From positions 33,014 through 97,013 of the forward strand of contig JAJPYQ010000032.1 of NCBI GenBank assembly GCA_021204865.1: a stretch of 64,000 bases of DNA, written 5' to 3'. Positions 23,986 through 46,137 of the stretch are shown piece by piece. Source of the stretch: Prevotellaceae bacterium (lineage in GTDB: Bacteria; Bacteroidota; Bacteroidia; Bacteroidales; Bacteroidaceae). Numbering within the stretch: position 1 is the stretch's first letter; each line of letters starts with the position of its first letter. The notes under the pieces were generated by a model. The model worked only from the letters and a program-made list of their open reading frames with translations, had not been told where the DNA came from and did not search any database. The position numbers and the translations under genes were made by a program.

Positions 23986-24054
23986 AGTGCTTGGTGTGAC
24001 GCTTGAATTCACCAATTCCAAGTCTACCCAGTTGTTAATAATCCGGGCAACGGT

Positions 24055-24123
24055 CACCACCCCCAAACACATACCTACCAACCCCTATATATAAGGGGTT
24101 GGTAGGTATATGTTTGAGGGGTG
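24055..24123. repeat. Island palindrome, copy 1 (long form)
   Basis: Two nearly complementary arms of about 30 nt (CACCCCCAAACA... / ...TGTTTGAGGGGTG, with ATACCTACCAACCCCT inside) flank an ATATAT centre. The same long form with its flanking sequence recurs at 35575 and, inverted, at 45977. Confidence 0.9.
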
Positions 24124-24184
24124 TATGTACCCGTATTGCCAAGATTATTTGTATGACATTATATATAATGAGAGTAGCACCTGA

Positions 24185-24304
24185 AAGACCACCTACCTAA
24201 CCGGAGCATATAGGGAATGGTTGGTAGGTAGTCTTAGTTCCTATGGCTGCCATCAAACACCACCCACCATACCTTAGTATATATAGGCAGGTTGGTGGGT
24301 GTTT
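24185..24304. repeat. Island palindromes, copies 2 and 3 (short form)
   Basis: Copy 2 (24185-24235) and copy 3 (24255-24304) each pair an ACCTACC/ACCCACC arm with GGTAGGT/GGTGGGT around a central CATATAG or TATATA. The 24125-24184 spacer has no gene. Confidence 0.85.
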
Positions 24305-35447: not shown

Positions 35448-35479
35448 CAAAGATAAGGCTTATTGGCGGAACCGCCAAA
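35448..35479 (-). promoter_or_regulatory. Promoter for purF-carA-carB
   Basis: On the minus strand TTTG (35479-35476), a 20-nt spacer and TATCTTTG (35455-35448) give a full consensus. The leader to ATG 35355 is about 87 nt. A PurR-like operator or riboswitch is not evident. Confidence 0.75.
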
Positions 35480-35574
35480 GGGAGAGCGAGCGATTTTCTG
35501 CTTCGTCAGCCCTTTGCCTCCACTTCCCCAAACATTACACACTTCCCTCAACTGTCATCAATCCGGGCATCGGT

Positions 35575-35643
35575 CACCACCCCCAAACACATACCTACCA
35601 ACCCCTATATATAAGGGGTTGGTAGGTATATGTTTGAGGGGTG
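35575..35643. repeat. Island palindrome, copy 5 (long form)
   Basis: Identical in the palindrome to copy 1 (24055) and, with its right flank through TTGCCAAGATTATTTG, nearly identical to it. It appears inverted at 45977. Confidence 0.9.
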
Positions 35644-35697
35644 TCTGTACCCGTATTGCCAAGATTATTTGTATGACATTATAGATAAAGAGGGAGC

Positions 35698-35812
35698 AAA
35701 CACATACCATACCTGGGCATATAGGGAATGGTTGGTAGGTAGTCTTTAAAGGTCAGAATACGGAAACACATACCATACCTGGGCATATATGGGGAAGTGT
35801 GGTAGGTGTTTC
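35698..35812. repeat. Island palindromes, copies 6 and 7
   Basis: Copy 6 (35698-35749) and copy 7 (35762-35812) share CACATACCATACC arms and GGGCATAT centres. Copy 7 touches the stop codon of the FISUMP remnant, so it may act as its terminator. This block is repeated inverted downstream of the FISUMP gene at 44719. Confidence 0.85.
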
Positions 35813-36245
35813 ATTCTGAAACGGTGCGGACGGAGAAGCCGTAGCAGCGGTAGTTCCAATACCGGTAGAAGTAGCCACTGAAGAAGCTGAGGTAGTACGC
35901 GCCCTGCGTATCGCTCTCGTCGGGTGTGGCACTCCAATAGTCGCCGCCCTGTCCAGCGCTGAGAAGCGACGTCCCGAAACGCCAGCCTGCGGCGGGAAGG
36001 AAGATGCTGTTGCCGCTCGGTCCCGTCACCTTGTAGCCCGCATGTCCGCCCATAGTTGTCCACGTGCGCTGGCACTTGTTTATCAGTTCGTCTATCTCGT
36101 TCGCTGTGGGCAGCCTCCACGAGCGCTGGCACTTGTTTATAAGCTCGTCTATCTCACTCCACGTGGGCATTCTCCACGAGCTGCCCCAGTTGGCGCGGGC
36201 GGCATCGTAGTCCACCCAGCCTGATATTTCGCCTTTTCGAGCCAT
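35811..36245 (-). pseudogene. FISUMP domain remnant fused out of frame to an upstream TPR gene
   Basis: This frame holds the second half of a FISUMP domain (SGWVDYDAARANWGSSW ... GYKVTGPSGNSIFLPAAGW ... GFSVRTVSE). The first half (EYVDLGLSVKW...) is missing. It joins the TPR gene at 36149 at GCGAAA/TATCAGG, with a frame change. It also contains a 57-bp imperfect tandem duplication, visible as SSWRMPTWSEIDELINKCQR next to SWRLPTANEIDELINKCQR. It has no signal peptide, and the ATG given in the track lies inside the TPR reading frame. Its last 60 codons form variable region A (see 35823). Confidence 0.75.
35823..35987 (-). other. Candidate DGR variable region A
   Basis: Compared codon by codon with region B (45241-45405) over 60 codons, 20 amino acids differ. 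Of these 20 codons, 18 differ only in positions 1 and/or 2 (for example TTC/GGC, CTC/TAC, AGC/TAC, TGC/ACC). Of the 40 codons for unchanged residues only one has a silent change (GCA/GCT). This fits mutation of AAC-type codons to NNC. Confidence 0.7.
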
Positions 36246-37195
36246 TGACTTCCCTCGTCTTCGTTACCTAACTTATTGTAAGAGTTGCCGATGTACTCGT
36301 AGGCTATTTGCAGGGTGGAGCAGTTGGGTATCGCCGCGCATTTGGTCATAGCCGTGATGCAGTCCTCATAACGTCCCAAGTCGTAGTATATTCTCCCAAG
36401 TGTGTCCCAGCTGGCCTCGTTTGCATCTGTTTTGACTGACTGCTCCGCATAAGGTAAGCCCAATTCTGGCTTGCCCTGTTCGTAGTAATACCACCCCAGA
36501 CTGTTCTGCGCACCAGCATGTCCTTGCTCAGCTGCCTTGCGATACCACTTCGCAGCTTCCTCCTTGTTCTGGGGAACTCCTTTGCCATTGTCATAGCACA
36601 CTCCCAGATTGTTTTGAGCCCACTTGTTACCTTGCTCAGCTGCCTTGCGGTACCACTTCACGGCTTCCTCTAAGTTCTGTTCAACACCTTCGCCATTGTC
36701 ATAGCTATATCCCAGATTGTACTGAGCGACAGCATTCCCCTGCTCGGCAGCCTTGCGGTACCACTTCACGGCTTCCTCTAAGTTCTGTGGTACGCCTTCG
36801 CCATTGTCATAGCACACTCCCAGATTATTCAATGCCTCGGCGAATTGTGGGGAAGAGAATCCTTGTTCGGCTGCCATTGAGTACCATCTGGTGGCTTCCT
36901 CGTAGTCTTGCGTCACGCCAGTGCCGTTGTAGTAGCACTGTCCCAGTTTGTATTGAGAATATGCGTCCCCAAACATAGCGGCTTTCCTGTAGGAGCGGAA
37001 CTTGGATTTATTTTGGATTGATTCTATGGCTGAACCTATACCATAAACGATACCATAATAGATACCACCGATGATAACGGCGGTAAAACAATAGGAAGCT
37101 ATCTCTATGATAGTATCACCCACATTGCACGCAGTCACGGATAGGGACAACGCCATTATCAGCAGAGCCTTACATGTTAGCCTTATCGCTTTCAT
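36149..37195 (-). CDS. Sel1/TPR lipoprotein, C-terminus altered by deletion
   Basis: A 348-residue protein with a lipoprotein signal (ALSLSVTAC, Cys23), a second hydrophobic segment about 37-57 (FTAVIIGGIYYGIVYGIGSAI), Sel1 repeats about 70-225 (AQYNLGYSYDNGEGVEQNLEEAVKWYRKAAEQGN and similar) and a TPR tail about 230-320. The tail (GRIYYDLGRYEDCITAMTKC) is almost base-identical to the TPR gene at 25214. After LEKAK the frame runs into shifted FISUMP sequence and ends with GARGECPRGVR, which is not meaningful. The intact ancestor was probably a TPR/Sel1-FISUMP fusion like 25214. Confidence 0.75.
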   Translation of the reverse strand: MKAIRLTCKALLIMALSLSVTACNVGDTIIEIASYCFTAVIIGGIYYGIVYGIGSAIESIQNKSKFRSYRKAAMFGDAYSQYKLGQCYYNGTGVTQDYEEATRWYSMAAEQGFSSPQFAEALNNLGVCYDNGEGVPQNLEEAVKWYRKAAEQGNAVAQYNLGYSYDNGEGVEQNLEEAVKWYRKAAEQGNKWAQNNLGVCYDNGKGVPQNKEEAAKWYRKAAEQGHAGAQNSLGWYYYEQGKPELGLPYAEQSVKTDANEASWDTLGRIYYDLGRYEDCITAMTKCAAIPNCSTLQIAYEYIGNSYNKLGNEDEGSQWLEKAKYQAGWTTMPPAPTGAARGECPRGVR

Positions 37196-37211
37196 AGTCT
37201 TGAATCGGTTG

Positions 37212-37505
37212 TCAACGTTCGTCGTACTTCTTGATCTTCTTCGCCATTCCGAACGTGTCGAGCTTCGCCTTGAACACTTGGCAGCAATCCTTGCAGAAGT
37301 ACTGGTGGTAGCCAGTCTCCAGGGCGAGCTTTCTCACCAGCAGTCCGGATAACGACACCCCAGCCGCGCCCACCAACGTCGAGACAACCGCCCCTCCCAG
37401 CACACCGCCCACCTGAGCGATGCCACGGGTGAGCTTTCCTTTCGCGGTCTTCTTCACGTTGAGACTGCCGCAGTAAGGACATTGAACAGTTACACTACTA
37501 CTCAT
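37212..37505 (-). CDS. Small zinc-ribbon membrane-associated protein
   Basis: A 97-residue protein with CPYCGSLN near the start and CKDC near the end, a split zinc ribbon, around a Gly/Ala/Val-rich hydrophobic stretch (GGVLGGAVVSTLVGAAGVSLSG) that could span or insert in the membrane. It belongs to a minus-strand group with the J-domain gene (25-nt gap). Function not recognised. Confidence 0.6.
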   Translation of the reverse strand: MSSSVTVQCPYCGSLNVKKTAKGKLTRGIAQVGGVLGGAVVSTLVGAAGVSLSGLLVRKLALETGYHQYFCKDCCQVFKAKLDTFGMAKKIKKYDER

Positions 37506-37530
37506 TTTGATCTGTCTTTTGATGATTTAA

Positions 37531-37788
37531 CTATAGCTTTCCCTTGATTTCTTTCTCCAGCTTGACAAGCTCTGAGTAGTTGAAGCGGTTGTCGTTGACA
37601 CGCCTCATCAGCTCCTCAGCCAGTTTCTTCTCGTCGGGGTTCTCATAGTGGTCGGGATGCACACTGTTCGCCAGCCTCTTGTATAGCGAGCGTGCCCGCA
37701 CGATGCCGTCCACCACATTCGCGCTCTCGTCACGCCTTGTCTTTCTCCTCAACCTCAGGCGGTTGATGTATCTCATCAGGATGTTCAT
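37531..37788 (-). CDS. Mini J-domain protein
   Basis: An 85-residue basic protein. SLYKRLANSVHPDHYENPDEKK carries the HPD tripeptide of J-domains, and NDNRFNYSELVKLEKEI resembles the following helix. In the family this motif stimulates Hsp70 ATPase. The protein is little more than helices II-IV of a J-domain preceded by a Lys/Arg-rich N-terminus. It overlaps the upstream gene by 4 nt (ATGA), so the two are translationally coupled. Confidence 0.65.
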   Translation of the reverse strand: MNILMRYINRLRLRRKTRRDESANVVDGIVRARSLYKRLANSVHPDHYENPDEKKLAEELMRRVNDNRFNYSELVKLEKEIKGKL

Positions 37789-38204
37789 GACGGCTTGCCT
37801 ATGAAGTAGTTGCTAAGGTTGGCGAACTTCGCCAGAGGGTAGAGTTGCTTCATTCCCGTCGTCTTGCCCTTTATCACGAGTGTGTCGAAGCCCATCGCCA
37901 TCAGCTGGCGCACGAACTGGGCGTTCCCCGTCACGTACGAGGCAAGCTCCTTCATCTCCCCTGAGGTCAGGCGGAAGTCGTTCTCGATGCTGATCTTGAA
38001 GCCGCTCCTGAGCCACATTGCGCTCATCTCGTGGCGGAAGTCGCTCACACCCTGGGTGATTGACACCTTGCACAGCCTGCCGAACTCTCCGCTTGTGAAG
38101 TACTCCATAAATGCCGTGTTCATCTGGCTGATTATTCTCACACGCTCGAACGAGCCGTCCATAATGACGTTGATAATGTTGGTGATCAGTGTTTTTAAGG
38201 TCAT
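37785..38204 (-). CDS. Hypothetical protein coupled to the J-domain gene
   Basis: A 139-residue protein, not recognised. It is mostly helical by eye (LITNIINVIMDGSFERVRIISQM; GEMKELASYVTGNAQFVRQLMAMG) with no signal peptide. It overlaps the mini J-domain gene, so it may be its partner or client. Confidence 0.55.
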   Translation of the reverse strand: MTLKTLITNIINVIMDGSFERVRIISQMNTAFMEYFTSGEFGRLCKVSITQGVSDFRHEMSAMWLRSGFKISIENDFRLTSGEMKELASYVTGNAQFVRQLMAMGFDTLVIKGKTTGMKQLYPLAKFANLSNYFIGKPS

Positions 38205-38234
38205 AGTCTTGATATAGTTTGATTGATAATGTGC

Positions 38235-38438
38235 CTACCCGAAAAGGAACTTGAACAGCCAGATGACGATGAATATGCCAAGGCCTGCCAGCAGTATGCG
38301 CCACACGCAACCCGCCGCCAATAATCCGCCTCCGAGGCATCCTCCCAAAGTGTCTCCCACTTTGTCTTTCCCGTCAGAGAGCAGGAAGCCCAGCACTCCG
38401 CCTATAACGGCGATGATTACTACAACCCAGAACCACAT
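38235..38438 (-). CDS. Small two-helix membrane protein
   Basis: A 67-residue protein with two hydrophobic helices (WFWVVVIIAVIGGVLGFLL; LLAGLGIFIVIWLFKFLF) separated by a Gly-rich hinge (GDTLGGCLGGGLLAAGC). It is the first gene downstream of the right copy of the 256-bp leader and heads the zinc-ribbon/J-domain set. Function unknown. Confidence 0.55.
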   Translation of the reverse strand: MWFWVVVIIAVIGGVLGFLLSDGKDKVGDTLGGCLGGGLLAAGCVWRILLAGLGIFIVIWLFKFLFG

Positions 38439-38499
38439 AGTTCCCTCCTTTCCGTTGTTTTCATGTCTTCTATTGTTTTGTCGGTATCAGTGTCTGTGT

Positions 38500-38755
38500 G
38501 GCCTGGAGCTTGGGCAACAAAAAACGTGGACCGATTCTTCGTCTACGTCTTCTGAGGTATAGCCAAAACCATTGCAGTCATATACGAGTAAAAGCCCACG
38601 CGTTCCGCGTGAGCATCGGCTTAAACCCTTGACTGCCTCGTAAACTGGCTATTTACAGAAGACAAGAACGTAAGCTAACGCTTTATCTAAGTGTCCTACT
38701 CTTGGTCTTTACATATCGGTGCGGTTTACGGTTTGTGTCGCGAAGGTAGGCAATT
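38500..38755. repeat. 256-bp inverted repeat, right copy
   Basis: The reverse complement of 24354-24610 with about five differences. The two copies enclose about 13.9 kb that includes purF-carA-carB. It contains the second copy of the putative RNA. Confidence 0.9.
38590..38735 (-). ncRNA. Putative small RNA or attenuating leader, copy 2
   Basis: Starts after TACCTTCG (38748-38741) and ends at the same GCCCACGCG/CGCGTGAGC hairpin and T-run as copy 1. It differs from copy 1 at two bases within the RNA. Confidence 0.5.
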
Positions 38756-38802
38756 ATCCGCATTCGCACCGCATGTGGTCGGGGAAAAACTTGCGGCAAT
38801 CT

Positions 38803-38928
38803 GGAAACACCCACCTGTCCTGGGCATATAGGGAATGGTATGGTGGGTGGTCTTTCGTGGCGGGGAGGGGCATAAGAAAACACCTACCAACCTCTCCGTA
38901 TAGGCGGGGGGATTGGTAGGTGGTTTTA
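38803..38928. repeat. Island palindromes, copies 8 and 9
   Basis: Copy 8 (38803-38856) and copy 9 (38877-38928) have AAACACCCACC and AAACACCTACCAACC arms with matching GGTGGGTGG and GGTAGGTGGTTTT arms. Copy 9 is 20 nt from the 3' end of the 38948 gene. Between 38439 and 38948 nothing else is seen besides the leader repeat. Confidence 0.85.
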
Positions 38929-38947
38929 GAGAGTAAGCTCAGAGGGC

Positions 38948-39190
38948 TTACAGCAACTTGTACATTTTGCCGTCGCGCTTGAGCTTGCGGGCCTCGACGA
39001 GAGAGTTGATGATCAGGTCGGCGAGCTCGTTGTCCTCGCTGTTGGTGCGCTCCCTTCGGAAGTTGAACGTGTAGCCGAGCTCCAGCTTGACGTTGGCTCT
39101 CAGGTAGCGGTGGTCGAGCCACTGCTTGCCTGAGTTCCCGAAGACGCGGGAGACTATCTCCCGCGACTTCTCGAGCCCGCGGCGCGTCAT
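38948..39190 (-). CDS. Hypothetical basic protein
   Basis: An 80-residue Lys/Arg-rich protein, not recognised (RGLEKSREIVSRVFGNSGKQ ... LIINSLVEARKLKRDGKMY). Its start overlaps the stop of the 39187 gene (ATGA). It is the last gene of the AAA ATPase operon. Confidence 0.5.
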   Translation of the reverse strand: MTRRGLEKSREIVSRVFGNSGKQWLDHRYLRANVKLELGYTFNFRRERTNSEDNELADLIINSLVEARKLKRDGKMYKLL

Positions 39191-39594
39191 CGCAGCACCT
39201 CCTTCCTTTTTGAGGTGATCAGTCTCATCATCCCCACAGCAGCCAGTGTGTGGCGCGCGCTGAGGTCGAGGTTGACTGTCGGCCGCAGCTTACTGTCGAT
39301 GCCGTAGCGGAGCACGTCCTGGTCCACAAGGTAGTCGATGACGTTCAGGATGAAGATCCTCTCCTTCGGCAGGTTGTCCTTTGTCACCTCTGCATTGTAG
39401 CCACGGTAGTACTGAAGGGGGTCTTTTGTGAGTTCCGACATCAGGACACCCTTGGGGCGGTTGTGCTGGAAGTACTCGTCCCACAGGTAGGATAGCACAG
39501 CGTAGGTGCTTTCCACGCTCTTCACGCCCCATCCGAGGCAGTTAGTCACTGCGGCGCAGTTAGGATCGCGCCAGAAAATTTTCTTTTTTGTCAT
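39187..39594 (-). CDS. Hypothetical protein of the AAA ATPase operon
   Basis: A 135-residue protein, not recognised. It is compact and mixed in composition, with VESTYAVLSYLWDEYFQ and ERIFILNVIDYLVDQDVLRYGI suggesting a winged-helix-like region. It lies 12 nt after the ATPase gene and overlaps the next gene by 4 nt. Confidence 0.5.
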   Translation of the reverse strand: MTKKKIFWRDPNCAAVTNCLGWGVKSVESTYAVLSYLWDEYFQHNRPKGVLMSELTKDPLQYYRGYNAEVTKDNLPKERIFILNVIDYLVDQDVLRYGIDSKLRPTVNLDLSARHTLAAVGMMRLITSKRKEVLR

Positions 39595-39606
39595 ATTAAT
39601 TGAACA

Positions 39607-40890
39607 TTAAAGGTTAAACACAATAGGCTCGTCGCCTTCTACTTTACACTCAATGAACGCGTCAACCATACGGTCGACCTCCTCATCGTCGATCTGCTCA
39701 AACACGGCGTCTTCCGCGTCCGCGCCGTCGTCCTCGCCGGGTGGCGGCAGGAGGTATTGCTGCCCTTTGCGGACGATCAGTCCCTCCTTTACCATCGTGG
39801 TGATCTTCCTGTCGACGGTCACCTCCGCCTTCTGCCCGAGGTCCATGATGCCGTCGAGCAGCTCGCGTCTGGTCATAGCGTCCGCCCCTTTCCTGGTGAA
39901 CGCCTGCCTTGCCCAGTCGAAGTACCTCTTCAGGGTCTCCTCTGCCTGCGAGAGGGTCTCCACCTTGTCGCAAGCCACGGGCAGGGCGAGTCCGTCCCGG
40001 GTCTTCCGGATGGTGTAGGCGAAGGGGGCGAAGGGCTCCCCGCGTGTCCCCCTCTCGTGGGGCTTCACGGTGTTCCTTCCGTCCCTGCCGCTCACCATCA
40101 GGGAGCTGTACCCCTTCTGCAGGAGGAACCTGCCGATGTGGCCTCGCGCCTGGTCGGTGCCCATGTTGGTATGCAAGACGAGCAGGATGGCGCACTGGTA
40201 GCGGTCGCAGAGCTTGCGGAGCCAGCATATTGCGCGCTTGCTGCCGACCTCGTCGTTCATGGAGGGCACGAGGTCAATCAAGCCGTCCACCACGGCAAGG
40301 TCAGGACGCTCCGCCTTGATCCACCTTGCTATGCGCTCGCGCCTGAGGCTCTCGGAGTCGAGCAGGCCGCTCCGCTCGTCCTCAGCGTCCAGCAGGTCGA
40401 TGTAGCGCAGGCGTGGGTTGCTCTGAGCGTCGGCGGTGCCGCTGAGACGCTTGATCTTCCACATCAGGGTGACGCCGCCCTCGCTCTTGCCCTGCTCCGT
40501 GTCGAAGTAGATCACCCTCAGGTCATCCCTCGCGGCGGCCAGCCCCAGCTGCGCCTGGCCCAGTGTGGCGGCTGCCAAGGCGGCGCATAGGGTGGACTTG
40601 CCCACCTTCGAGTCGCCGATGACGCTGGTCATGCCGCCACGGATGAGTATGGGCACGCCCGTCTCCTGCTGCACCATGAGTGGCTGCACCCCCGCCAGCC
40701 GGGCAGTCTGGCTGAGCTCGTCCTTGCGGATGTCGTGCCCCGTGGAGTCGATGTAGACCCTCTCGTCCACTGTCTTCGTGGAGTTTGCTTCGTTGGAAGC
40801 GTTGTCTTGGCTTTCGCCGGCCTTCTGAGCAGCGGCCTCCTTGAGGTCCTGCTCTGCCTGCCGAGGCAGGTCGTTAGTTTGATTATTCAT
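39607..40890 (-). CDS. RepA/RecA-like AAA ATPase
   Basis: A 427-residue P-loop ATPase. The Walker A motif is VIGDSKVGKSTLCAALAAAT, Walker B-like strands are LRVIYFDTEQGKS and LAVVDGLIDLVP, and a sensor-like stretch is AILLVLHTNMGTD. This is the AAA_25/RepA helicase-like group found in Bacteroidetes mobile and accessory operons. The C-terminal 80 residues look like a winged helix (TRRELLDGIMDLGQKAEVTVDRKI) with an acidic tail. The ORF track starts 36 codons earlier, upstream of the promoter; ATG 40890 (NNQTNDLP) is preferred. No integrase or primase lies beside it. Confidence 0.75.
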   Translation of the reverse strand: MNNQTNDLPRQAEQDLKEAAAQKAGESQDNASNEANSTKTVDERVYIDSTGHDIRKDELSQTARLAGVQPLMVQQETGVPILIRGGMTSVIGDSKVGKSTLCAALAAATLGQAQLGLAAARDDLRVIYFDTEQGKSEGGVTLMWKIKRLSGTADAQSNPRLRYIDLLDAEDERSGLLDSESLRRERIARWIKAERPDLAVVDGLIDLVPSMNDEVGSKRAICWLRKLCDRYQCAILLVLHTNMGTDQARGHIGRFLLQKGYSSLMVSGRDGRNTVKPHERGTRGEPFAPFAYTIRKTRDGLALPVACDKVETLSQAEETLKRYFDWARQAFTRKGADAMTRRELLDGIMDLGQKAEVTVDRKITTMVKEGLIVRKGQQYLLPPPGEDDGADAEDAVFEQIDDEEVDRMVDAFIECKVEGDEPIVFNL

Positions 40891-40914
40891 AGTCTTGCTT
40901 TTTAAAGACATCGA

Positions 40915-40922
40915 CAAAGGTA
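40915..40922 (-). promoter_or_regulatory. -7 promoter element for the AAA ATPase operon
   Basis: TACCTTTG on the minus strand, 24 nt before ATG 40890. Confidence 0.55.
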
Positions 40923-40976
40923 GAGGGGTTCTCAGGGGCTGCATATAGTGCGGTATTGCGGCACAATATGGCGCAA

Positions 40977-41014
40977 TAAAAAAAGGCGCCCTCCTCATCT
41001 TTGGAGAGTGCCTC
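40977..41014 (-). terminator. Terminator of the 41044 gene
   Basis: On the minus strand GGCACTCTCC and GGAGGGCGCC form a stem with one mismatch and one wobble, followed by seven T residues, 30 nt after the stop codon. Confidence 0.7.
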
Positions 41015-41043
41015 TTGTGGCTTAGGTTATGCCCTGGTAAGGT

Positions 41044-41934
41044 CTAATCCTCGCCGTAGAGCAGGTCGTCGATCCCGCTCCTCCACTTCTGGGGCTTGTT
41101 GTGGGGGACGTCCTGTATCTGGGAGTACGAGGAGTGGAGGCCCTTCTTTCCGAACACCTCTTCCAGCTCCTTCCACGGCGGGGCGACCGTTTCCTTTTGG
41201 CGGTACAGCTCGCTGAGGAAATACGCCAGGCTGGCATTGGAGCCTTTCCACTTGTAGTGGTCGCCGTCCGTCTCGTCCATGAAGCCCTCCTCGACGGCTC
41301 TCTTGAAGAACTTGAGTGCCGTGTCGGTCTTCCACGACTGCCGCGGTCGAGTGCCTTCGACAGGCGTGTCGCTGAGCCGCGACAGCCTATGAACTACACG
41401 TGCCACCCCGAGGCACAGCCTCTCCAGCCACCCGGCGTTGTCCCACTCCTCGTCTTGAGGCTCGAGAGGCTCCCGCTCCTCCGTTATCCTCCTGAGCAGC
41501 CCTGTGTCAAGCTGCCTCGTCTCATGGCCGTCACTCACAGAGTACCCCTCGAGCGTGGACAGGAGGCGAACCCCGCCGAAGAACCACTGCCTGTTCTCGA
41601 ACCAGCGCATGCCCAGGCAGCCGAGAGCCTCGTCAACGGCCGCCCTCCTCTGCTCGGCGCTCATCTTCCTCGCCATCGCCTCCAGCTGCTCCAGCGCCTC
41701 GTCCTCCTGCCGTCGGTTGAGCTCACTGTACCAAGGCACTCCTGGCCAGCCCCCAGCCTCCGCCACTTCCTCCCGAGCGGGCAGATACTCGACAAGCCTC
41801 TCCCCCGGGTCCACCAACAGCCTCAGGCGCGCCTGGCCCTCGCCCGACCAGTACAGCGACACTATGATGTCCGCAAACTCCTTGGTCGCCTTAAGGCGGC
41901 TCTTCACATAGTCCATACTTTCCATGGTCTTCAT
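41044..41934 (-). CDS. Hypothetical cytosolic protein (possibly DUF6043-like)
   Basis: A 296-residue acidic helical protein without a signal peptide. The end part GSNASLAYFLSELYRQ ... PPWKELEEVFGKKGL resembles Bacteroides proteins annotated DUF6043, but I hold this loosely. A TAACTTCG element (41958-41951, minus) could be its promoter and a terminator follows the gene, so it is probably monocistronic. Confidence 0.5.
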   Translation of the reverse strand: MKTMESMDYVKSRLKATKEFADIIVSLYWSGEGQARLRLLVDPGERLVEYLPAREEVAEAGGWPGVPWYSELNRRQEDEALEQLEAMARKMSAEQRRAAVDEALGCLGMRWFENRQWFFGGVRLLSTLEGYSVSDGHETRQLDTGLLRRITEEREPLEPQDEEWDNAGWLERLCLGVARVVHRLSRLSDTPVEGTRPRQSWKTDTALKFFKRAVEEGFMDETDGDHYKWKGSNASLAYFLSELYRQKETVAPPWKELEEVFGKKGLHSSYSQIQDVPHNKPQKWRSGIDDLLYGED

Positions 41935-42114
41935 AAGCTGTCCTCCTGCGCGAAGTTACGCGTTTCTCCCCGACATACCGCAAGGGTGTGGCAAATTCGT
42001 CATCCCGCGCCCTCGGATTTGGCCTCGCCTCATACCTTATATATAATTGCCTTAAAGGGAGCTCTTGCAAGAGAGAAGCAGATAAGGAATCACAAACAAA
42101 ACAACATCACGCTT

Positions 42115-42633
42115 ATGGCAATCAATTACTCAAAGGTACTCAAGCAAGTGCCCGTCGGCTCCGGCACCTACAAGGTGTACGCCCAGGCGCAGACCACCCA
42201 GATCTGGGGTCTCGACGAGTTCGCCCAGCACATCCACGACCACAACTCCGTCGCCTCGAAGGGCATGATACTGCTCATCCTGACCGACATGGTGACCTGC
42301 CTCAAGGAGAAACTTCTTGACGGGGTGAAGGTAAGGCTCGGCGACTTCGGCTCGTTCTGGCTCTCGCTCCACAGCCACGGCGAGGACAACGCCGACGACT
42401 TCACCGCACAGGACATCACAGGCATCACCCTCAGCTTCACCGCGGGCAGCTCAATGACGAGCGACGAGCTGATGAAGGACGCGACGTTCGAGTTCGTCGG
42501 CACCCGCGCGCAGCAAGCCGAGACCAGGGCGCAGCGCAACGCCGACCTCAACGAGCAGGCCGGCGGCTCCAGCTCCAGCTCGCAGAGCGGCTCAGGCTCG
42601 CAGAGCGGCGCAGGCGGCGAAGGAGATGACTAA
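42115..42633 (+). CDS. HU-family DNA-binding protein with disordered tail
   Basis: A 172-residue protein of the HU-related Bacteroidetes group. The HU fold covers about 1-125 (DEFAQHIHDHNSVASKGMILLILTDMVTCLKEKLLDGVKVRLGDFGSFWLSL). A low-complexity tail of Ser, Gly and Gln ends in acidic residues. The ORF track merges it into a longer upstream frame (41101); ATG 42115 after AACATCACGCTT is the family start. The smalltalk ORF overlaps its stop. Confidence 0.85.
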   Translation: MAINYSKVLKQVPVGSGTYKVYAQAQTTQIWGLDEFAQHIHDHNSVASKGMILLILTDMVTCLKEKLLDGVKVRLGDFGSFWLSLHSHGEDNADDFTAQDITGITLSFTAGSSMTSDELMKDATFEFVGTRAQQAETRAQRNADLNEQAGGSSSSSQSGSGSQSGAGGEGDD

Positions 42634-42740
42634 TGGCCGAGATGACAAGGAAGACGTGGCTTCAGGTCCTGCTGCAAGTGCTCTCCGCGCTTGTCGGGGC
42701 GTTGACCGCAGCGATAACGAACTCCTGCATAGGGGCTTGA
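42633..42740 (+). CDS. Smalltalk-type micropeptide
   Basis: A 35-residue ORF too short for the track, with its ATG overlapping the HU stop (TAATG). It reads MAEMTRKTWLQVLLQVLSAL then VGALTAAITNSCIGA. A basic start with a Trp, one amphipathic or membrane helix and a terminal Ser-Cys fit the 'smalltalk' family found after HU-like genes in Bacteroidales. Its function is unknown. Confidence 0.75.
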   Translation: MAEMTRKTWLQVLLQVLSALVGALTAAITNSCIGA

Positions 42741-42823
42741 CGAGACACACAAGACGCTGACACGAGGACACGTGGGAGAGGCGCGACCCCTCCCTCGTTT
42801 TACGGAGAAGAAAAAGCATGAAC

Positions 42824-42871
42824 AGCCCGCGGGGGAGAAGCTTTGAGAGCCGACCCTGTCGCGGGCTTTTT
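42824..42871 (+). terminator. Terminator after the HU-smalltalk pair
   Basis: AGCCCGCG pairs with CGCGGGCT across a 27-nt loop and is followed by TTTTT. It lies 84 nt after the smalltalk stop. Confidence 0.75.
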
Positions 42872-42900
42872 CGTGCCCTCAAGGCAGAGACACCTGTCTT

Positions 42901-42950
42901 AAACACCACCTACCAACCTTTCCCTATATAGGCAGGACAGGTGGGTGTTT
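42901..42950. repeat. Island palindrome, copy 10
   Basis: AAACACCACCTACCAACC pairs imperfectly with GGCAGGACAGGTGGGTGTTT around CCCTATATA. Confidence 0.85.
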
Positions 42951-43006
42951 CCTGTCCCCCGCATAATTTTACCCGCCCGCTTGCCGTGTGTTTGCGGATT
43001 ATTGCC

Positions 43007-43014
43007 TACCTTCG
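43007..43014 (+). promoter_or_regulatory. -7-like element for the 43059 Sel1 gene
   Basis: TACCTTCG, the same variant as in the right leader copy, preceded by ATTGCC as in both leader copies. It lies 45 nt before the GTG start and no leader RNA intervenes. Confidence 0.5.
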
Positions 43015-43058
43015 CGCCAGACGAACATAAAGACACTGAAACCACTAAAACAATAGCT

Positions 43059-44705
43059 GTGACAAGGAAATCATTAGGAGTGGCATTGATGGCAGCTATG
43101 CTTCTGCTCACGCTCTCCGCCTGCCAGAGGAAGACCGACCAGGGCACGCCCGGCTCTGCGGAGCAAGGAGACACACTGACGCTCTGGTACGAGGATGGCG
43201 TATCCCTCTTGACGCTTTTCACAGATTCCGACACCGTGGCGGTACATCTGCTTGGTGAGGCCGCCCGCCGGGGGAACGCGAAGGCTCGGCTCGCCTTGGG
43301 AGTGTGCTATTTCACGGGCCGCGCAGTGGAGAAAGACTACAAGCAGGCGGCTGAGTATATGGCGGATGCCGCCAACGAGGGGAATCGCTTATGCCAAATG
43401 CTCGTGGCTATATGCCGTGGAGACGGACTGGGCGACGGGCGGGATTACGCTGAGGTGCTGGAATGGCTGAAGACCCACGAGGGCTCGAACCCTTTGTGCC
43501 AGTACCTGCTGGGCTTGTATTACGAGAACTGCACAAGCCTCGATAACCGCTATCGAGAGGCGTTGCGATGGTACAGGAAGCTGGCTGGCACTTTTCAACT
43601 GAGTGTGTGCGGCAAGGACTACCCTGCGGATTTCCGTAGAGGCGCTGAGAACGGAGAAGCTAAGGCACAATACTGCTTGGGGCTGTCTTACGAGATTGGC
43701 GACGGTGTCGGGCGAGACTTCGAGGAGGCTGCCAAGTGGTACCGCAAGGCCGCCGAGCAAGGGCTGCCGGACGCGCAGTTGCAGTTGGGCGATTGCTACT
43801 TCTTGGGGCTCGGCGTGCGGCAAAACCTGAAGGAGGCTGCGAGGTGGTACGGACAGGTCGAGGGGCAGTCTGTGACCGGCGACTTGGTTAGTTTGTGCCA
43901 GGACAGCGACATAGTCGAGAGCCAGTTCGAGTACACAATGGAGCATTCACGCATCGAGCGTGTACGTGTTGACGCGATGAATGACTACCCTTCAGCGCAG
44001 TACGATTTGGGCTATCTTGCCGAATACGGCTATGTCGACGATGACATGGCGAGAATGTACACAGAGGCAGCCGAAAGAGGAGATGCCGAGGCACGCTATA
44101 AGCTGGGCTGCCTCTACAGAGACGGCAAAGGGGTGAAGAAAGACTTGAGGCTCGCCTCGAAGTGGCTCAGGAAGGCGCAGGAGCATGGCTTCAATGTCAA
44201 GCGGATGGGGCTGGAGTCGTGCCTTGCTGAGGGAGACAGTGTGCCGCATGACAGAGCGGAGGCTTTCAGGTGGTACAGGAAGGCGGCGGAGCAGGGGAAC
44301 GCCGACGCTCAGTTCAACCTCGCCTATTGCTACGATAACGGCTACGGGGCTCCGAAGCTCCCTCTCGCGGCTGCGGGATGGTACCGCAAGGCCGCCGAGC
44401 AGGGTCACCCCAGCGCAATGTGCAGACTGGCCGGTCTCCTCTATGGCGTTAACGAGGAGGAGCGAGTGAAGTGGCTTAGAAAGGCGGCGGAGCTTGGCAA
44501 CCCCGAAGCCCAGTACTGGCTGGGCATGTCGTCGCTGCACGGGCAGAATCCCAAGGAAGCCGCGGGGTGGATACTAAAGGCGGCTGAGCAGGGGCTCGCT
44601 GATGCCCAGAGAGAAATGGCGGACCGCTACGAGAACGGCGACGGCGTGCCGCAAAGCCAGGAGGAATCGGACAAGTGGTTCACTCAGTACGCACAACGTT
44701 TCTAA
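43059..44705 (+). CDS. Sel1-repeat lipoprotein
   Basis: A 548-residue protein starting at GTG (TRKSLGVALMAAMLLLTLSAC), a lipoprotein signal with Cys22. The ORF track starts 38 codons earlier, upstream of the promoter-like element. More than ten Sel1 repeats follow (NAKARLALGVCYFTGRAV, EAKAQYCLGLSYEIGDGV, ADAQFNLAYCYDNGYGA, LADAQREMADRYENGDGV). No enzyme domain is seen. Sel1 proteins are solenoid scaffolds. It lies 13 nt upstream of the FISUMP gene and is very probably co-transcribed with it. Confidence 0.85.
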   Translation: MTRKSLGVALMAAMLLLTLSACQRKTDQGTPGSAEQGDTLTLWYEDGVSLLTLFTDSDTVAVHLLGEAARRGNAKARLALGVCYFTGRAVEKDYKQAAEYMADAANEGNRLCQMLVAICRGDGLGDGRDYAEVLEWLKTHEGSNPLCQYLLGLYYENCTSLDNRYREALRWYRKLAGTFQLSVCGKDYPADFRRGAENGEAKAQYCLGLSYEIGDGVGRDFEEAAKWYRKAAEQGLPDAQLQLGDCYFLGLGVRQNLKEAARWYGQVEGQSVTGDLVSLCQDSDIVESQFEYTMEHSRIERVRVDAMNDYPSAQYDLGYLAEYGYVDDDMARMYTEAAERGDAEARYKLGCLYRDGKGVKKDLRLASKWLRKAQEHGFNVKRMGLESCLAEGDSVPHDRAEAFRWYRKAAEQGNADAQFNLAYCYDNGYGAPKLPLAAAGWYRKAAEQGHPSAMCRLAGLLYGVNEEERVKWLRKAAELGNPEAQYWLGMSSLHGQNPKEAAGWILKAAEQGLADAQREMADRYENGDGVPQSQEESDKWFTQYAQRF

Positions 44706-44718
44706 ACACAACAGAGAT

Positions 44719-45417
44719 ATGGAAGGGAAAGCATTAAGGTTAACATTGATGGCATCGTTTCTTGCGCTCGCCACCACTGCCTTCGGGCAGAAACCTATAA
44801 AGAAGCCAGTGCTGCCGAGCAGGAGCAGCGCCACGACTGCCACGCCGAGCAAGCCAAGGGTGCAAGTGAGTTCGCCTACAGGAACGATAAACGGCCACGG
44901 CTATGTCGACCTGGGCTTGAGCGTGAAGTGGGCTACGTGCAACGTGGGGGCAAGCTCGCCTGAGGGTTACGGCAACTACTACGCCTGGGGAGAGACAAGC
45001 ACGAAGTCGGATTACTCGTCAAGCAACTGCAAGACTTGGGAAGTGAGCATGGGCAGCATAGCGGGCAACTCAAGCTACGACGCGGCACGCTCCAACTGGG
45101 GAGGAACGTGGAGGCTGCCCACAGTGGACGAGATAGACGAGCTGGTTAACAAATGCACGACTGTATGGACGACCGTGAACGGTGTCAAAGGGCGCAAAGT
45201 TACAGGACCGAACGGGAACAGCATCTTCCTTCCCGCCGCTGGCTGGCGTGGCGGGACGTCGCTTTACTACGCTGGAGAGAGCGGCTACTATTGGAGTGCC
45301 GCACCCTACGAGAGCAATACGCAGATCGCGTACGACCTCTACTTCGACAGTGGCGACTTCTACCGGAGCAACAACAGCCGCACCAACGGCTTCTCCGTCC
45401 GCGCCGTTTCAGAATGA
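44719..45417 (+). CDS. Secreted FISUMP-domain protein with candidate DGR variable region
   Basis: A 232-residue protein: signal peptide (LRLTLMASFLALATTAFG), a linker QKPIKKPVLPS shared with the 27365 protein, a Thr/Ser/Pro stretch and a FISUMP domain from about residue 55 (NGHGYVDLGLSVKWATCNVG ... WGGTWRLPTVDEIDEL ... GYYWSAAPYES ... NGFSVRAVSE). The last 60 codons are variable region B. The C-type-lectin-like fold tolerates massive side-chain change on one face, which is why DGRs use it. Two hairpins and a small MutS-like ORF follow. It is the best-preserved candidate variable protein in the window. Confidence 0.85.
   Translation: MEGKALRLTLMASFLALATTAFGQKPIKKPVLPSRSSATTATPSKPRVQVSSPTGTINGHGYVDLGLSVKWATCNVGASSPEGYGNYYAWGETSTKSDYSSSNCKTWEVSMGSIAGNSSYDAARSNWGGTWRLPTVDEIDELVNKCTTVWTTVNGVKGRKVTGPNGNSIFLPAAGWRGGTSLYYAGESGYYWSAAPYESNTQIAYDLYFDSGDFYRSNNSRTNGFSVRAVSE
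45241..45405 (+). other. Candidate DGR variable region B
   Basis: The partner of region A at 35823. Many positions are AAC, AGC, TAC, GAC or ACC codons (CGG AGC AAC AAC AGC CGC ACC AAC), the codon set expected from an AAC-rich template. Upstream of this block the two genes differ in the ordinary way, with silent changes. Confidence 0.7.
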
Positions 45418-45460
45418 AAAGCGAAGCGTGTTTGATTCATTTGATTCATTTGATTTATTA

Positions 45461-45516
45461 GCGTCGGGCATTAAAAGCCCGACGCTGGAATTCCCGCGAA
45501 GCGGGTCGATTTTTTT
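45461..45516 (+). terminator. Tandem hairpins after the variable region
   Basis: Hairpin 1: GCGTCGGGC / GCCCGACGC, a perfect 9-bp stem with a 7-nt loop (45461-45485). Hairpin 2: CCCGC-GAA-GCGGG (45493-45505) with a run of seven T from 45510. Hairpin 2 is probably a terminator. A hairpin placed shortly downstream of the variable region is also a known requirement for DGR retrohoming in Bordetella phage. A three-fold TTGATTCAT-like repeat precedes them. Confidence 0.75.
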
Positions 45517-45524
45517 GAGATTTT

Positions 45525-45710
45525 ATGCCAACGTACACAGAAGCTATCAAGTTTGAAGAGGCGGCTCCCAAAGGGACTATCCGCCTCGTGAGGTCAGGTG
45601 AGTTCTACCGCGCGTACGACCATTCGGCGTGGCTTCTCTCCAGCATCAAGGCGGCCAACCTGCCCACCCCGCAGCCAGAGCCGAAGATCTCCACCAGCTT
45701 CATCCGCTGA
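45525..45710 (+). CDS. Small protein resembling the MutS-like (MSL) DGR accessory, probably truncated
   Basis: A 61-residue ORF 107 nt after the FISUMP gene. IRLVRSGEFYRAYDHSAWLL resembles the MutS domain I motif (GxFYExYxxDA) and the small MSL accessory proteins encoded in Bacteroidetes DGRs. Those are about twice as long, so this may be a 5' fragment: after LSSIKAANLP the sequence becomes Pro-rich and ends. It could also be an unrelated short ORF. Confidence 0.4.
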   Translation: MPTYTEAIKFEEAAPKGTIRLVRSGEFYRAYDHSAWLLSSIKAANLPTPQPEPKISTSFIR

Positions 45711-45740
45711 CCCCAGAGGGGAGGATACGGGCGGAAAAGC

Positions 45741-46044
45741 GGAAACACCTACCACACTTCCCCATATATGCCCAGGTATGGTATGTGTTTCCGTATTCTG
45801 ACCTTTAAAGACTACCTACCACACTTCCCCATATATGCCCAGGCATGGTATGTGTTTCCGTATTCTGACCTTTAAAGACTACCTACCAACCATTCCCTAT
45901 ATGCCCAGGTATGGTATGTGTTTGCTCCCTCTTTATCTATAATGTCATACAAATAATCTTGGCAATACGGGTACAGACACCCCTCAAACATATACCTACC
46001 AACCCCCTATATATAGGGGTTGGTAGGTATGTGTTTGGGGGTGG
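45741..46044. repeat. Island palindromes, copies 11-14, partly a 67-bp tandem array
   Basis: Copies 11 (45741-45792), 12 (45807-45860) and 13 (45874-45924) repeat with an exact 67-bp period. Copy 14 (45977-46044) is the long form. The block is the inverse of 35575-35812 but has one extra 67-bp unit. No gene is present from 45711 to 46146. Confidence 0.9.
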
Positions 46045-46105
46045 TGACCGATGCCCGGATAGTTGACAGTTGATGGGAACAGGGGAGACTTTTCCTTGCC
46101 CTGCT

Positions 46106-46137
46106 TTTGCATTTCAGCATAGAGTTCACTATCTTTG
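46106..46137 (+). promoter_or_regulatory. Promoter for the DUF4199-GT2 gene run
   Basis: TTTG (46106-46109), a 20-nt spacer and TATCTTTG (46130-46137). The start codon is only 9 nt further on, so the mRNA would be almost leaderless. Confidence 0.75.

Follow-up and report, generated by a model that had tools for sequence, protein, structure and literature searches.

The DGR of phage BPP-1 is the closest described system. There, the hairpin that follows the VR matters as a structure, and the IMH together with this hairpin is enough to retarget the system (PMC3240598), although residual activity is retained without the stem-loop (PMC12875486). In BPP-1 and phage DGRs, the element consists of one stem of 7 to 10 bp closed by a GRNA tetraloop and located 4 to 34 bp from the VR (PMC3240598). 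Two further groups bear on targets that lie outside a cassette, the cyanobacterial remote variable proteins (PMC7517822) and the multi-VR DGRs of DiGReF (PMC3521204). In the parts of these reports considered here, no common 3′ element of the targets is defined, and PMC7517822 goes no further than raising the possibility that remote targets are activated by cruciforms or IMH sites. Finally, MSL accessory proteins of DGRs were named with PF01624 in PMC10053308.

The locus described here lies in a window of 64,000 nts (the whole stretch of DNA analysed) from a Prevotellaceae bacterium, whose genome was searched as a single draft assembly of 2.34 Mb. In the window, a FISUMP gene ending in a VR is followed by a structured tail and by a 61-codon ORF (Table 1). 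This segment probably flanks a remote DGR target on its 3′ side, with the tail acting as a cis target-site element. Similar to the remote and multi-VR systems, as far as the parts of PMC7517822 and PMC3521204 considered here describe them, paralogous C-lectin targets are found off-cassette, diversified from its TR and several times fused to Ser/Thr kinases, with the difference that a structured tail is present here at both remote and cassette VRs.

As in BPP-1 (PMC3240598), a GC-rich inverted repeat follows the VR and its pairing is kept while the stem sequence is free; the loop is small and contains purines, and the 3′ end of the VR is common to the TR. Unlike in BPP-1, hairpin 1 has 10 bp and a larger 7-nt loop at 45 nts from the VR, hairpin 2 has 5 bp and a GNA (GAA) triloop at 78 nts from the VR, and the tail also contains a GNA mini-hairpin and about 30 nts of 9-nt AT repeats. 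Compared with the BPP-1 type, a GC-rich inverted repeat with conserved pairing is therefore present, whereas the combination of stem, GRNA loop and distance is not that of the phage element. A hairpin after the VR was already known from BPP-1; the architecture of the tail and its spread with remote targets are new.

Table 1. Features of the putative remote target locus and of the second VR gene in the window
Feature	Position	Strand	Remarks
Second VR gene, broken	35811..36245	-	25 A and 5 non-A changes relative to the TR; without tail
FISUMP/Lcl_C (C-lectin-like) target gene, putative remote variable protein, 232 aa	44719..45417	+	PF07603, TIGR02145, translation
Variable repeat (VR), 183 nts	45232..45414	+	alignment to C13 TR
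VR 3′ end GGCTTCTCCGTCCGCGCCGTTTCAGAA	45388..45414	+	same in TR and C13 VR (alignment)
Whole target tail, 110 nts, from stop codon to base before MSL start	45415..45524	+	identical to C13 tail; model R1, 107.8 bits
Mini-hairpin GCGAAGC, directly 3′ of stop codon	45421..45427	+	GCGNAGC, GNA triloop in relatives
AT-rich 9-nt direct repeats TTTGATTCA-TTTGATTCA-TTTGATTTATT	45431..45459	+	kept in relatives
Hairpin 1, AGCGTCGGGC-ATTAAAA-GCCCGACGCT, GC-rich	45460..45486	+	perfect 10-bp stem, 7-nt loop
Hairpin 2, CCCGC-GAA-GCGGG	45493..45505	+	5-bp stem, GAA triloop; TCGA and T7 after it
MSL 5′ fragment, 37 codons	45525..45635	+	tblastn 86%, E 4e-21; matches C13 MSL
Copy of FMN-reductase gene 3′ end	45626..45754	+	98% over 129 nts; intact gene on C54

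The window VR gene and the DGR on contig C13

The window FISUMP gene matches PF07603 (E 1.1e-08) and, under the curated cut-off of the family, TIGR02145 (E 2e-05), and by inspection its product carries an apparent signal peptide. The VR forms the 3′ end of this C-lectin-type gene and runs up to the stop codon. It differs from the TR on contig C13 at 17 positions, all 17 at TR adenines, with 0 of 129 non-A positions changed, an A-only pattern with a probability by chance of 1e-9. The 3′ end of the VR would correspond to an IMH-like region.

The only RVT_1 match in the assembly lies on C13, which holds the one complete DGR of the genome, composed of a kinase-FISUMP target, VR, hairpins, MSL, bAvd, TR and RT. 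The target is a 647-aa Ser/Thr kinase-FISUMP protein whose VR is followed by the same two hairpins as in the window. The MSL has 162 aa and the bAvd/Avd protein 127 aa; the latter matches phrog_3206 (5e-22) and, slightly under the cut-off, bAvd PF22296 (1.7e-8), and the RT matches phrog_1423 (6e-91). The TR, 183 nts with 54 adenines, is located inside the RT reading frame and is read through. The VR of C13 shows 20 differences from the TR, every one at an adenine (0 of 129 non-A).

A-only homology to a TR, the presence of RT, Avd and TR in the same genome and a C-lectin VR at the 3′ end support the assignment of the window FISUMP gene as a remote target of the DGR on C13. The sequence-only reading had suggested that the cassette might be decayed, which holds for the truncated MSL copy but not for the VR, whose A-only pattern looks like recent diversification in trans from the C13 cassette. 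It had also proposed a search for a full-length MSL homologue and an RT elsewhere in the genome, and the 162-aa MSL beside the RT and Avd of C13 is such a pair.

Six VRs are present in the genome, in the window, on C13, C53, C60 and C57, and in the second gene of the window near 35.8 kb. The complete two-hairpin tail is found at two of them (window and C13), which are the only two without a non-A change. The VR of C53 has 22 A and 6 non-A changes and a 1-nt insertion leading to a frameshift, and that of C60 has 17 A and 15 non-A changes; at both, similarity to the tail stops at the end of hairpin 1. The C57 VR carries 21 A and 4 non-A changes, the latter adjacent and near the 3′ end, and one extra codon. 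In C57 and C53, a common block GGGCAG is found where GGCTTC is expected, which suggests a variant TR absent from the assembly. The 35.8-kb gene lacks the FISUMP N-terminus and its frame differs from that of the upstream Sel1/TPR ORF; as already noticed from the sequence, it lacks the tail segment, a palindromic repeat following directly after the stop with GAAA microhomology at the junction.

The two tail-less VRs (C57 and the 35.8-kb copy) were diversified at some past time, and their many A substitutions imply that diversification does not absolutely require the tail, or that the tail disappeared afterwards. A strict rule of no diversification without a hairpin is hence ruled out by these two copies. 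Another FISUMP copy, near 27.8 kb, was dismissed as a VR because of 44 non-A differences. The tail-less VR of C57 belongs to a second kinase-FISUMP protein (L026, 2584-4266), and the ORF that follows its gene resembles an ispE-type kinase by inspection.

Structure and distribution of the tail

Hairpin 1, first described as a perfect GC-rich hairpin of 9 bp, is perfect and GC-rich with a stem of 10 bp, and the second hairpin with its T-run was found as described. As single-stranded DNA, the sequence 45415-45524 folds with a z of -3.1, and 2 of 200 shuffles fold equally well. The motif GCGAAGC forms a DNA hairpin of unusual stability. The core of hairpin 1 (21 nts, at most 2 mismatches) was found at exactly four places in the 2.34-Mb genome, always directly after a VR (C13, window, C53 and C60). 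An Rfam search gave no match on the tail.

The tails of the window and C13 are identical (0 of 110 positions differ), compared with 70 differences in 330 positions (21%) in the FISUMP part upstream of the VR and 6 in 108 (5.6%; 5 synonymous and 1 nonsynonymous) in the first 36 MSL codons. The chance of finding 0 changes in 110 nts is about 2e-10 at the approximate MSL synonymous rate (5 in ~27 sites) and about 0.002 at the overall MSL rate. This identity could reflect constraint or, alternatively, gene conversion confined to the tail.

A covariance model built from four tails was used to scan 301 whole genomes of the family, in which 38 tail sites were identified in 24 genomes and 13 genera. 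Among the 33 sites inspected, 30 are located at the 3′ end of a FISUMP/C-lectin ORF of the SVRPVSE type, shortly past the stop, including four in which the VR stop lies roughly 60 to 90 nts upstream of the tail; one follows a vestige of such an ending and two have no such ending. The scan of the order (393 Bacteroidales genomes) gave 7 sites outside the family, all after a FISUMP/C-lectin ORF, and at 6 of these RT, Avd or MSL lies no more than 1.5 kb away. At three of the outside-family sites, Avd follows the tail and MSL was not detected, which argues that the tail goes with the VR rather than with MSL.

The aligned tails were fitted to the model, are related and include three or four of its seeds, hence the covariation figures lean towards structure: across 33 tails, standard pairs fill 94.7% of the pair cells, both sides have changed in 12 of 15 pairs (7/10 in hairpin 1 and 5/5 in hairpin 2) and the covariation score is 0.456, against 0.114 for shuffled and at most 0.122 for slid partners. 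The mini-hairpin GCGNAGC, in which all four bases occur at N, is found in 20 of the 33 tails (shuffled mean 0.15, maximum 3), and the loop of hairpin 2 is GNA in 17/23 tails and GTAA in 3/23. In five relatives, the differences between tailed VRs and the TR fall at adenines in 22/22, 25/28, 12/12, 33/35 and 16/20 cases.

No DGR RT was found in 18 of the 24 tail-bearing genomes, some of them 91-95% complete, so either the assemblies miss the RT or many of the tails may be fossils. In most multi-tail genomes, RT or TR is not detectable. The exact hairpin pattern was not found in viral contigs, nor was the target gene with its flank in a plasmid collection; a search of viral contigs for the RT gave one relative.

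Variants of the element were also observed. Two loci of genome G006 (L115 and L130) have tails without hairpin 1, and L130 has TTC as the loop of hairpin 2, so that the GAA loop is on the opposite strand. At five MSL-bearing loci (L041, L043, L045, L036 and L038), other inverted repeats, some of them longer, lie by inspection between the VR and MSL, indicating that the hairpin type varies between lineages.

The hairpins could be read as an intrinsic transcription terminator of the target gene with no function in the DGR, since in the window hairpin 2 and TCGATTTTTT obtain a terminator-like score and TTCTTTT follows hairpin 1 in C53 and C60. This reading is improbable, because a T-run after hairpin 2 occurs in 3 of 23 tails and is absent from the other 20, and a terminator therefore probably does not explain the tail. 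Moreover, the AT spacer and the mini-hairpin are conserved too, the sites are almost confined to VR-type 3′ ends, and in the cassette the tail is placed between the target and MSL/Avd, where a strong terminator would presumably be costly. The recurrence of the hairpins at VRs, their covarying stems and the rarity of the T-run agree with the original proposal that they are DGR-like, and argue against their being merely a terminator.

The 61-codon ORF and the putative surrounding island

The ORF at 45525-45710 contains SGEFYRAYDHSAWLL and was rightly recognized as MSL-like, its first 37 codons matching the C13 MSL. It was also thought to be about half the usual length; the MSL is indeed truncated, but the ORF is not simply a half-length MSL, since its final codons and stop are supplied by the FMN-reductase 3′ end, joined in frame to MSL. 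The intact FMN-reductase gene on C54 matches PF03358 (E 1.1e-31). The 61-aa ORF is probably a dead chimera and a passenger.

Searched against Pfam, NCBIfam and PHROGs, the 61-aa ORF gives MutS_I at an E of 0.06 only. The proposed profile check pointed in the expected direction for the full-length homologue, the C13 MSL matching PF01624 (MutS_I) at a sub-threshold E of 0.013 and 8 of 15 MSL family members matching it, the best at 5e-05. With an AlphaFold model of MSL (pLDDT 81), the best Foldseek matches are MutS and MSH2, which are weak (E ~0.1) and cover the N-terminal half; against PDB sequences, the MSL profile gave no match. By profile and predicted fold, the family is MutS-domain-I-like. 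Similar to the MSL of PMC10053308, the C13 MSL and its homologues lie between the target and Avd/RT, whereas the window retains a stub of 37 codons that continues into the end of an FMN-reductase gene. The C13 protein thus combines full length, MutS-I similarity and an adjoining RT, a combination that the window ORF does not have. Two MSL-like proteins of distinct sequence and ~162-171 aa (L053 and L052, contigs C30 and C32) are present in the single genome G028.

Truncated MSL copies after target genes were found in at least four other genera. After tailed VRs, stubs of 58 codons occur in G053 and G134, the latter also having one of 20 codons beside a decayed VR, and a stub of 55 codons occurs in G072, at two overlapping contig ends; partial copies are also present in G028, G157 and G179. 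Such recurrence in other genera would be expected if the 61-aa ORF were a functional short MSL, or if its 5′ DNA belonged to the target element. For the window copy this is very hard to sustain: of 154 MSL profile positions the stub retains 35, which is under half of the MutS-I-like domain, its last codons derive from an unrelated gene, the ends of the stubs vary between copies, and C53, C60 and the three outside-family DGRs have a tail without a detected MSL.

In G179, the MSL 5′ part is joined to the RT C-terminal part, apparently by an in-place deletion inside the cassette, hence MSL stubs can arise by copying or by in-place decay. By the second route, the window site would be a former full second cassette that lost the 3′ part of MSL together with Avd, TR and RT by deletion in place. 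This origin is conceivable although rather unlikely; besides the G179 junction, it could account for MSL segments that differ mainly at synonymous sites (5/6), as if both formerly coded working proteins. However, remnants of RT, Avd and TR were not found in the 64-kb window, the FMN-reductase sequence at the junction is a copy (98%) of the end of the gene that is intact on C54, and C53 and C60 hold copies of the tail without any MSL. Copying is tentatively favoured for the window stub.

The locus is part of a larger region of difference. Contig C161 of G740, a close relative, aligns to the window as far as 35478 (90%) and resumes at 46127 (85%), with 4.4 kb of different DNA separating the two stretches. 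The window block 35479-46126 (10.6 kb), which contains both VR genes, Sel1/TPR genes and small ORFs, looks from this alignment like a variable island. Inverted repeats of 266 bp, 98% identical, are found at its edges (35543-35807 and 45814-46079), each immediately beyond the 3′ terminus of one of the outward-facing VR genes, and inversion or exchange through them is possible. Intergenic imperfect palindromes of the AAACACCTACCACACTTCCCCATATATGCCCAGGTATGGTATGTGTTT type occur at 24037-24235, 35698-35812, 38803-38855, 42899-42953, 45740-45923 and 45978-46043; for the palindrome at 45982-46040, Rfam gave only sub-threshold microRNA matches.

Proposed role of the tail

The favoured interpretation of the window segment as the flank of a remote target can be extended into a mechanism. 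The C13 cassette (bAvd, TR, RT and MSL) would provide adenine-mutagenised cDNA from its TR, to be written in trans into the window VR. The 3′ end of the VR would serve as the IMH and the 110-nt tail as the cis target-site element, in which the GNA-loop mini-hairpin, the AT-rich 9-nt repeats and one or two GC-rich hairpins follow the IMH. The GC-rich hairpins may extrude from supercoiled DNA and aid cDNA integration, similar to the BPP-1 hairpin. From this analogy we infer that the tail promotes retrohoming and that the hairpins act as extruded DNA. Counting against such a role, C53 and C60 keep hairpin 1 yet carry 6 and 15 non-A changes, and both hairpins of the window, at 45 and 78 nts from the VR, are farther away than the 4 to 34 nts of phage DGRs.

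Copying of the VR and tail beside a gene would turn this gene into a new target. In the window, the MSL 5′ fragment would have been carried along with them as a passenger, and illegitimate recombination would afterwards have joined it to a stray FMN-reductase 3′ end, leading to a non-functional 61-codon ORF. More speculatively, and with rather low confidence, the tail could be a portable target-capture module used throughout the Bacteroidales, in which the GNA-loop mini-hairpins and AT repeats form a platform read by Avd/RT or MSL, so that any gene receiving a VR and tail would become hypermutable in trans.

A large metagenome survey states that remote targets would escape it (PMC8144416). The tail, nearly exclusive to VRs, provides a model with which remote targets can be searched for even when the contig carries no RT. 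It is also a short, defined element with separable parts (mini-hairpin, AT repeats, hairpin 1 and hairpin 2). Finally, the tail suggests how a genome may expand a hypermutable receptor family, made of secreted FISUMP proteins and kinase-linked sensors, from one template.
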